A stretch of 64,000 nt of DNA from Acidihalobacter prosperus (GTDB lineage: Bacteria; Pseudomonadota; Gammaproteobacteria; DSM-5130; Acidihalobacteraceae): assembly GCF_000754095.2 (NCBI RefSeq), contig NZ_JQSG02000003.1, positions 485,397-549,396 of the forward strand, in the 5' to 3' direction. The notes beneath the pieces are model-generated. The model was not told the DNA's origin, ran no database searches, and worked only from the letters and a program-made list of their open reading frames with translations. Positions 17,897 to 36,983 of the stretch are shown here, in pieces (position 1 is the first letter of the stretch; each line of letters begins with the position of its first letter). The position numbers were made by a program, and so were the translations under genes.

Positions 17897-20102
<2,206 letters not shown>

Positions 20103-35060: not shown

Positions 35061-36314
35061 TCAGACCGTACGGCGAATGCCGTCGGGCTTCCAGGCGGGG
35101 GCGATGACATCGTGCAGGGGCACGCGACCGAGTAGGGAAGCGGTGGCCACGGCCTGACCGCCGAACCGGCGATTGATGCGGTCGACCGCACGGTTCACGG
35201 CCTGTCGGGTCGGCGCCACGGGATCCTCGAACAGATCCAGCTGCACGTCCGCGGGTGCGGGATCGAGGGCGGTGACCTGAACCTGATGCACGCCCTCGCC
35301 CTGCCAGACCCGCGCCAGCACCTGACGGCAAAGCGCGGCGATCGGCTGGCCGTCGTCGGTCGGGCGCGGGGTCAGGTAACGTCCGCCGAGCCAGCCGGTG
35401 TCGGTGCGCAGCCCAATGAACAGCTGCTGCGCCTCCAGGCCGTTGCGGCGCAGGCGCGCGGCAACCTTCTGGGCCATGTGTTCGAGATACTGCTGCAGCA
35501 GGCGCGGGTCGCGCGTCGCCGGTGGCAGGATCTTGCCATGGCCCACGCTCTTGGGCGGCGCCACCGCCGGGCTGACGCCTTCGGGATCGCGCCCCTGCGC
35601 CATCAGCCAGATGCGCCGGCCGACGTTGCCCCAGCGCTGCGCCAGCACGCTGACCGGCAGACGCGCCATGTCGCCGCAGGTCTGCACGCCGCGACTGGCG
35701 AGAAAGCTGCCGATGCCGCGGCCGACGCCGCACAGCTCGGTAACCGGGACGTTGCGCAGGCGGGCGGCCGTTTCCCACGGCGGCACCACGGTCACCCCCT
35801 CCGGCTTGCGCTGCTTGGCCGCCCATTTGGCGGTGGTCTTGTCGCCGGCGACGCCGACCGAACAGGGCAGACCGGAAACCTCGCGCACCAGTCGCTGCAC
35901 CTTTTTAGCGATCACCGGCGGGGCACCGTGCAGGCGCTGCACGCGGGTGACGTCGAGAAAGGCCTCGTCCACCGAGAACACCTCGATGTCGGGCGTGATC
36001 GCCTGCAGCGCGGACATGATGCGCGCCGAGATCTGCGCGTAGCGCGCCGAGCGCGCGGTGATGCGGATCAGCTCCGGGCAGCGCCGCCGTGCCTCGGGCA
36101 GGCGCATGCCGGTATGGATGCCGAAGGCGCGCGCCTCGTAGGAACAGGTGATGATGCAGGTACCCTGGTCGCCGTTGGTGACGGCCACCGGCCGGCCGCG
36201 CAGCGACGGATCGTCGAGCTGCTCGATCGAGGCGAAAAAAGCGTTCATGTCGACAAGGACGATGGCGCGGGGCCAGCGGCGGTCGACGGAGGCTGAAGTA
36301 CCGGCGGCGTTCAT
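35061..36314 (-). CDS. Y-family translesion DNA polymerase
   Basis: A 417-residue DinB/UmuC-type polymerase. The catalytic acidic residues are intact in LVDMNAFFASIEQLDD and VFSVDEAFLDVT, with the thumb helix-hairpin-helix in ELCGVGRGIGSFLASRG and a little-finger domain (about 230-350). A C-terminal segment (QLDLFEDP) looks like a beta-clamp binding motif. It starts 6 bases after the lexA stop, so it is in an operon with its presumed SOS repressor. It performs error-prone bypass of damaged template. Assignment to DinB or a separate Y-family branch is not settled by reading alone. Confidence 0.92.
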   Translation of the reverse strand: MNAAGTSASVDRRWPRAIVLVDMNAFFASIEQLDDPSLRGRPVAVTNGDQGTCIITCSYEARAFGIHTGMRLPEARRRCPELIRITARSARYAQISARIMSALQAITPDIEVFSVDEAFLDVTRVQRLHGAPPVIAKKVQRLVREVSGLPCSVGVAGDKTTAKWAAKQRKPEGVTVVPPWETAARLRNVPVTELCGVGRGIGSFLASRGVQTCGDMARLPVSVLAQRWGNVGRRIWLMAQGRDPEGVSPAVAPPKSVGHGKILPPATRDPRLLQQYLEHMAQKVAARLRRNGLEAQQLFIGLRTDTGWLGGRYLTPRPTDDGQPIAALCRQVLARVWQGEGVHQVQVTALDPAPADVQLDLFEDPVAPTRQAVNRAVDRINRRFGGQAVATASLLGRVPLHDVIAPAWKPDGIRRTV

Positions 36315-36320
36315 GAGGGC

Positions 36321-36908
36321 TTACCGGTAGCGTCGAAACTGGGCGACCAGCACACCCTGGATGCGTACCCGCTCGGGGCTGTAGTGCATCGGCGCCATGT
36401 CGACGTTTTCGGGAATCAGCAGGATTTCGCCGCCGCTGGTACGACGCAGACGCTTGAGCGTGGCCTCCTCGTCGTCGATCAGCGCGGCGACGATGTCGCC
36501 GTCCTCGGCGCTGTCGCGGCGCGCCATGACCACGTAGTCGCCGTCGAAGATGCCGGCGTCGATCATCGAGTCGCCCTTGACGATCAGCGCAAAGCGGTCC
36601 GGCCCCAGCAGCATGGCGGACAGATCGATGTGCTCCTGCCCGGGGATCGCCTCGATCGGCCGGCCGGCGGCGATGCGCCCCGCCAGCGGCATCGCGTACG
36701 GCCCGGCCGGATCCTGCGGGATGCGCAGGCCGCGCCAGCCGGATTCGCGCTCCAGCAAGCCGGCTGCAAGCATCGACTGTACGTGATAGTGCACGGTGTT
36801 GCGGCCGACGCCGAGGGTGGCGCCGATCTCGGCCAGGGTCGGCGAGCGACCGTGGCGGGTGGCGTAGTCGCGGATGCACTGCAGGATCTCGGATTGGCGC
36901 GGATGCAT
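36321..36908 (-). CDS. lexA: LexA repressor
   Basis: A 195-residue SOS repressor. A winged helix-turn-helix occupies the first 65 residues (SPTLAEIGATLGVGRNTVHYHVQSM). The Ala-Gly self-cleavage site is in LAGRIAAGRPIEA, the catalytic serine in VKGDSMIDAG and the lysine in EATLKRLRR. The recognition helix is unlike the E. coli one. The ATG at 36908 matches the family start. GTTC-N7-GTTC elements lie immediately upstream, so it is probably autoregulated together with the downstream Y-family polymerase. Whether a second lexA exists elsewhere cannot be seen. Confidence 0.95.
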   Translation of the reverse strand: MHPRQSEILQCIRDYATRHGRSPTLAEIGATLGVGRNTVHYHVQSMLAAGLLERESGWRGLRIPQDPAGPYAMPLAGRIAAGRPIEAIPGQEHIDLSAMLLGPDRFALIVKGDSMIDAGIFDGDYVVMARRDSAEDGDIVAALIDDEEATLKRLRRTSGGEILLIPENVDMAPMHYSPERVRIQGVLVAQFRRYR

Positions 36909-36913
36909 AAAAT

Positions 36914-36961
36914 GTCCCATGAATGTTCGATGGCAACGCCAATCTAGAACATTCATCGAAC
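36914..36961. promoter_or_regulatory. Two LexA boxes of the GTTC-N7-GTTC type
   Basis: On the plus strand GAAC-ATTCATC-GAAC at 36947-36961 is an exact GAAC-N7-GAAC direct repeat (GTTC-N7-GTTC on the coding strand). GTCC-CATGAAT-GTTC at 36914-36928 is a second copy with one mismatch, 6 bases from the lexA start. This spacing is the one described for alphaproteobacterial LexA, not the E. coli CTG-N10-CAG palindrome. Confidence 0.6.
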
Positions 36962-36983
36962 ATTGGCAAGCGCGGCGTTGCGC

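Follow-up and report, generated by a model that had tools for sequence, protein, structure and literature searches.

The window studied here, a 64,000-nucleotide stretch of DNA from Acidihalobacter prosperus, carries a lexA gene and a Y-family DNA polymerase gene that very probably constitute an autoregulated switch dedicated to mutagenesis, under the control of a LexA belonging to a second gammaproteobacterial lineage, in a family that has no canonical LexA, whose recA carries no operator and whose detectable regulon amounts to this one operon. For this lineage we use the label LexA2, coined in this analysis.

The probable lexA-polymerase operon and its predicted promoter

The lexA gene (36321..36908, minus strand) encodes a protein of 195 aa that scored 140.4 bits against TIGR00498 (cut-off 110.95) and that combines a winged helix-turn-helix domain (LexA_DNA_bind) with an S24 peptidase domain (Peptidase_S24). 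The predicted cleavage site, Ala81-Gly82, and the dyad Ser114/Lys152 are invariant in all 16 aligned LexA2 proteins. Translation was taken to start at the ATG of MHPRQSEI, position 36908, which is the start common to the relatives; a longer lexA reading frame, opening at 36956, would begin within the operator. The gene for a DinB-like Y-family polymerase of 417 aa (35061..36314, minus strand; IMS domain, E 3.4e-46) begins 6 bp past the end of lexA, and its sequence contains the acidic motifs DMNAFF and SVDEAF. The two genes look like one operon, as the initial annotation had proposed, and would then be co-transcribed. Upstream of lexA there is ppsR, followed by a divergent phosphoenolpyruvate synthase gene. 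Neither imuA nor a gene for an inactive ImuB was found adjoining the window lexA, the downstream gene being DinB-like and retaining its acidic motifs.

The exact GTTC-N7-GTTC repeat and the one-mismatch copy that had been reported in front of lexA are both there. Read on the minus strand, the region runs TTGCCA, AT, GTTCGATGAATGTTC, TAGATT, 12 bases, GAACATTCATGGGAC, 5 bases and the lexA ATG. The predicted -35 element TTGCCA (36964..36969, minus strand) and the predicted -10 element TAGATT (36941..36946, minus strand) match the consensus, and the exact repeat, putative operator 1 (36947..36961, minus strand), occupies the 17-bp spacer of this sigma-70-like promoter. The one-mismatch copy, putative operator 2 (GTCCCATGAATGTTC, 36914..36928, plus strand), is inverted and lies between the -10 element and the start codon, 33 bp from operator 1 centre to centre, that is, about three helical turns. 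This arrangement is conserved: the exact repeat is found in all four lexA-bearing members of the family, with TTG and TANNNT at equal offsets, and the frame TTG-17-TANNNT around it is identical in genomes G000, G001, G002 and G004. Three of the four (including loci L075 and L076) also have the inverted copy with an identical single mismatch, and in the fourth (L078) the copy has a spacer of 6. The window holds one further exact GTTC-N7-GTTC, at 18137-18151 on the minus strand.

GTTC-N7-GTTC in the LexA2 lineage and the origin of the operator

According to the available parts of two papers (PMC8565304, PMC3323433), GTTC-N7-GTTC is the alphaproteobacterial motif and most beta- and gammaproteobacteria have CTGT-N8-ACAG, which bears out the initial attribution of the motif to alphaproteobacterial LexA. 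In the same way, the portion available of a footprint study that covered 54 lexA promoters of gammaproteobacteria gives only the canonical and the Xanthomonadales motifs. Matches to TIGR00498 above the cut-off were obtained in 92 of 144 relatives and are of two kinds, canonical LexA and LexA2; the window LexA is a LexA2 by its clade placement, by the His in its recognition helix and by the GTTC-N7-GTTC at its gene.

Within 200 bp of lexA the exact repeat was detected in 4 of 4 loci of the window family and in 40 of the 50 other LexA2 loci, or 44 of 54 altogether, the remaining ten promoters having none at that distance; within 220 bp the number is 46 of 54. The tree-set counts at the same distance were 0 of 16 for canonical gammaproteobacterial promoters, 11 of which have CTGT-N8-ACAG, 0 of 3 for Xanthomonas-like promoters and 0 of 18 for those of other bacteria, where GAAC-N4-GTTC occurs in four of the 18. 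Canonical loci outside the tree have the repeat in 1 of the 18 scored (L052) and CTGT-N8-ACAG in 9 of 18. The initial view of the motif as foreign to gammaproteobacteria is too restrictive, the motif being typical of LexA2. Set aside before the main count were ten unnamed loci (L091, L094, L097, L099, L107, L108, L114, L120, L121 and L128), nine named gammaproteobacterial loci (L222, L223, L224, L226, L228, L229, L230, L233 and L236) and the second LexA of L083, with the repeat in 3 of 10, 5 of 9 and 1 of 1, respectively; with these rows included, 53 of 74 LexA2 loci have it. Scoring for the repeat also covered part of the loci from further phyla and of the unusual S24 proteins. Named carriers of LexA2 include records of Methylococcaceae, Sedimenticola, Thiotrichaceae, Granulosicoccaceae and Ectothiorhodospiraceae, all of them metagenome-assembled. 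Judged from these sequences, GTTC-N7-GTTC is the common, if still putative, operator of the LexA2 lineage in gammaproteobacteria.

The promoter frame recurs in the wider lineage, since GTTCTC-N5-GTTCTC makes up exactly the 17-base spacer between a -35 element and TANNNT in 15 of the 30 LexA2 loci where a forward site is present; relative to other LexA2, the window family has the repeat shifted by two bases within the promoter spacer. Forward and inverted repeats occur together in 15 of 50 LexA2 loci. At two loci, L100 and L218 (the latter a Thiotrichaceae record), tandem GTTCG-type direct repeats lie 24 bp apart before LexA2, in contrast with the inverted pairs seen elsewhere. A polymerase relative of at least 400 bits is located beside lexA in 25 of the 54 LexA2 loci, and at one LexA2 locus (L122) lexA is followed by a gene that looks ImuA-like on inspection by eye and by a weak match to the Y family.

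The protein itself is not of the canonical gammaproteobacterial type, given that His-Tyr replaces the Glu-Glu of the recognition helix, which upholds the initial remark that this helix departs from the E. coli form, and that CTGT-N8-ACAG is found in none of the four lexA promoters of the family. The His, at a position which we take to correspond to Glu44 of E. coli LexA, is present in 4 of 4 family proteins, 47 of 50 LexA2 proteins and 16 of 16 alphaproteobacterial proteins, and in none of 16 canonical ones. After it, 47 of 50 LexA2 proteins have a basic residue, Arg or Lys, and 15 of 16 alphaproteobacterial proteins have Arg; the window family has Tyr there, and one residue is missing directly before the helix.

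These likenesses are what makes an acquisition of the lexA-polymerase operon, operator included, from an alphaproteobacterium worth weighing: the same operator stands at 16 of 16 tree-set and 32 of 37 other scored alphaproteobacterial lexA promoters (39 listed), the helix His and the basic residue after it are common to alphaproteobacterial LexA and most LexA2, and the AU test against a group of the window family with alphaproteobacterial LexA reached only p 0.07. The phylogeny nevertheless makes such a transfer, suggested in the initial annotation, quite unlikely. In our main tree, a careful reconstruction with 64 proteins, a 13-row LexA2 set that contains the window family has a support of 97/94, all LexA2 together with L189 are recovered at 99/91, and alphaproteobacterial and canonical LexA form separate clades at 100/100 and 100/99. 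The same picture emerges from a quick 107-row tree (97 for a LexA2 set of 38 that includes the window, 100 for alphaproteobacterial LexA). A tree in which the window family is forced together with alphaproteobacterial LexA is worse by 21 log units, and the identity of the window LexA is 48-57% with LexA2 proteins from other families of gammaproteobacteria and about 33-40% with alphaproteobacterial matches of full length. As far as protein sequences tell, therefore, the window LexA groups with the LexA2 lineage and not with alphaproteobacterial LexA, with the AU test borderline.

The deeper history of the operator is less settled. Alphaproteobacterial LexA and LexA2 are joined at 90/74 by the whole protein and at 72/66 when only its C-terminal domain is used, while the N-terminal domain by itself places LexA2 with canonical LexA at 81/86, and AU tests on the deep grouping rejected no alternative tried. 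Because the two domains disagree, a single origin of the operator is only one possibility, and convergence or an exchange of DNA-binding domains may instead lie behind the shared operator. Tentatively, and with somewhat less than even confidence, we suggest that GTTC-N7-GTTC comes from an older LexA lineage ancestral to both alphaproteobacterial LexA and LexA2, that in gammaproteobacteria this lineage became a switch reserved for a Y-family polymerase, and that families like that of the window have no other switch, with an SOS response confined to mutagenesis and uncoupled from recA.

Counts alone give the repeat no excess: the window has 36 GTTC-N7-GTTC sites with at most one mismatch where 33.5 are expected, and the 3.36-Mb genome has 59 exact sites against 52 for the reversed pattern, showing no genome-wide enrichment. 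It could then be argued that the repeat arose by chance and that LexA uses a different operator. This is very unlikely indeed, since at the density of exact sites a given stretch of 200 bp has a probability of about 0.4% of containing one, and the repeat holds the same position in all four relatives, recurs in the 40 other LexA2 loci and is absent from the 16 canonical ones. It is also bound to a single spacer length, spacers of 2 to 14 other than 7 occurring in at most 3 of the 50 other LexA2 loci (shuffled mean, 0.3). Position and conservation therefore identify the repeat at lexA as real, although weak further LexA targets could be missed with a motif that is not enriched in the genome.

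recA and the wider regulon

A scan for the repeat at recA, which the initial annotation had called for, showed no exact GTTC-N7-GTTC within about 300 bp of recA in any of the five family genomes. In G000 the gene order is cinA-thpR-recA-recX (names assigned by eye), and the upstream region of cinA has no exact repeat either. Among 20 further genomes with LexA2 only that were scored at recA, the repeat was detected in one, G133 (L358), as an exact GAAC-N7-GAAC 63 bp short of where the scan ended; this site is indistinguishable from chance, control of recA by LexA2 in G133 is possible, and the recA-free state is perhaps not universal. Genome G006 (L363), rated 99% complete, has LexA2 and the polymerase and gave no recA match over the cut-off. 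The 300-bp test may overlook operon promoters, because genomes with two LexA proteins also rarely show a site at recA: nine genomes with both kinds have a perfect CTGT-N8-ACAG there in one case and a single-mismatch one in another, one of the nine loci being cut to 53 bp.

The pattern WGTTCN6WGTTCTA matched exactly at lexA in four of the five family genomes and in one other place, near a WrbA-like reading frame (by eye) in G004, and its one-mismatch sites were fewer than those of the reversed control. One such site is common to G000 (C4:64793) and G001, the surrounding G000 reading frames having no evident repair role. A 17-mer derived from both lexA sites gave, beyond lexA, only three-mismatch matches in G000, and for three of these the lists of reading frames showed no repair gene starting behind the site. 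The second Y-family gene of G000 (C4:47185) has no exact site in its locus.

Across the class, GTTCTCN5GTTCTCT occurs 28 times in 20 of 144 genomes, and 21 of the sites are at LexA2 genes by position. The other seven are at six loci, two of them before Y-family polymerase genes (G088 and G123); no evident repair gene was seen at the rest. In both G088 and G123, lexA2 has no adjoining polymerase gene, and a Y-family polymerase gene not linked to it is preceded by the operator, set in a similar frame, with the repeat between TTGAA and a TATNNT-like element. Genome G067 (L307, L318 and L322) has GTTCTC-N5-GTTCTCT at three sites, of which two overlap in tandem, and no LexA by TIGR00498. From the distribution of sites, LexA appears to control little besides its own gene and one error-prone polymerase.

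That the operon belongs to a second SOS system alongside a canonical one, as had been proposed, is hardly credible: canonical LexA and LexA2 do coexist in several of the 144 relatives (nine such genomes were used above), but the window genome, rated 100% complete, has this one lexA, and within about 300 bp of its recA there is no CTGT-N8-ACAG with at most one mismatch. A canonical copy could be present only if it had diverged beyond the reach of TIGR00498 or fell into a gap of the sequence.

Two genomes deserve mention for their lexA content. In G037 the canonical lexA promoter (L052) has an exact GTTC-N7-GTTC, and the same contig has a LexA2 gene at a distance of about 8 kb; the two proteins might cross-regulate. 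Genome G003, of the same family as the window (L077, L327), has no full lexA and instead shows a partial S24 match beside a umuC-like gene, followed by another gene of the Y family; a complete loss of lexA in this genome is possible.

Proposed mechanism and comparison with known systems

We propose that LexA bound to the direct repeat in the spacer between the -35 and -10 elements would keep RNA polymerase away, and that a second LexA dimer near the start codon, 33 bp off, could strengthen repression, so that the protein would shut off both its own gene and the polymerase gene behind it. Upon DNA damage, RecA filaments formed on the damaged DNA would stimulate self-cleavage of LexA at Ala81-Gly82 and release the operon, and the polymerase thus induced would copy past lesions. 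As recA has no site, its expression is expected to be independent of the window LexA.

LexA motifs mark bacterial groups, and the direct repeat has been taken as the signature of alphaproteobacteria; that it also occurs in a broad lineage of gammaproteobacteria implies that predictions based on the E. coli box miss the SOS genes of species with LexA2 only. No report of GTTC-N7-GTTC in gammaproteobacteria was found in the portions of the open-access literature available, and older papers could contain the motif. Within that literature its role as the operator of a broad gammaproteobacterial LexA lineage is apparently new; control by LexA is itself known. The window also offers a natural case of a genome whose sole LexA, on sequence, leaves recA uncontrolled. 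It would represent one stage in a published idea, as given in the part of PMC8565304 available, in which a diverged LexA slowly regains a regulon after loss of the primary LexA.

Several known systems resemble this one in part. The lexA-imuB-C-polY operon of Geobacter sulfurreducens differs in having an ImuB-C gene in between, which the window is without, and its LexA site is GGTT-N10-AACC according to the part of PMC8565304 available. The imuA-imuB-dnaE2 cassette of the Pseudomonas putida type is likewise a second LexA lineage beside a mutagenesis gene, although in the window no imuA lies beside lexA and the Y-family acidic motifs are kept, unlike in ImuB. The P. putida LexA2 site is GTAC-N4-GTGC. 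LexA control of such cassettes is described as persistent in the available sections of PMC3323433 and PMC3765255. Canonical E. coli LexA has the LexA fold and the self-cleavage residues in common with the window LexA, but recognizes CTGT-N8-ACAG and has Glu at the position of the window LexA's His. Alphaproteobacterial LexA, for its part, forms a separate protein clade, with the helix SGIHRL against NTVHYH in the window family, and the alpha/beta core regulon published in the part available of PMC3323433 includes recA and uvrA, whereas recA of the window family is without a site. Nevertheless, the operator of alphaproteobacterial LexA, as in Caulobacter, is the same as that of the window in both sequence and spacer, and its helix His is followed by a basic residue, as in most LexA2.
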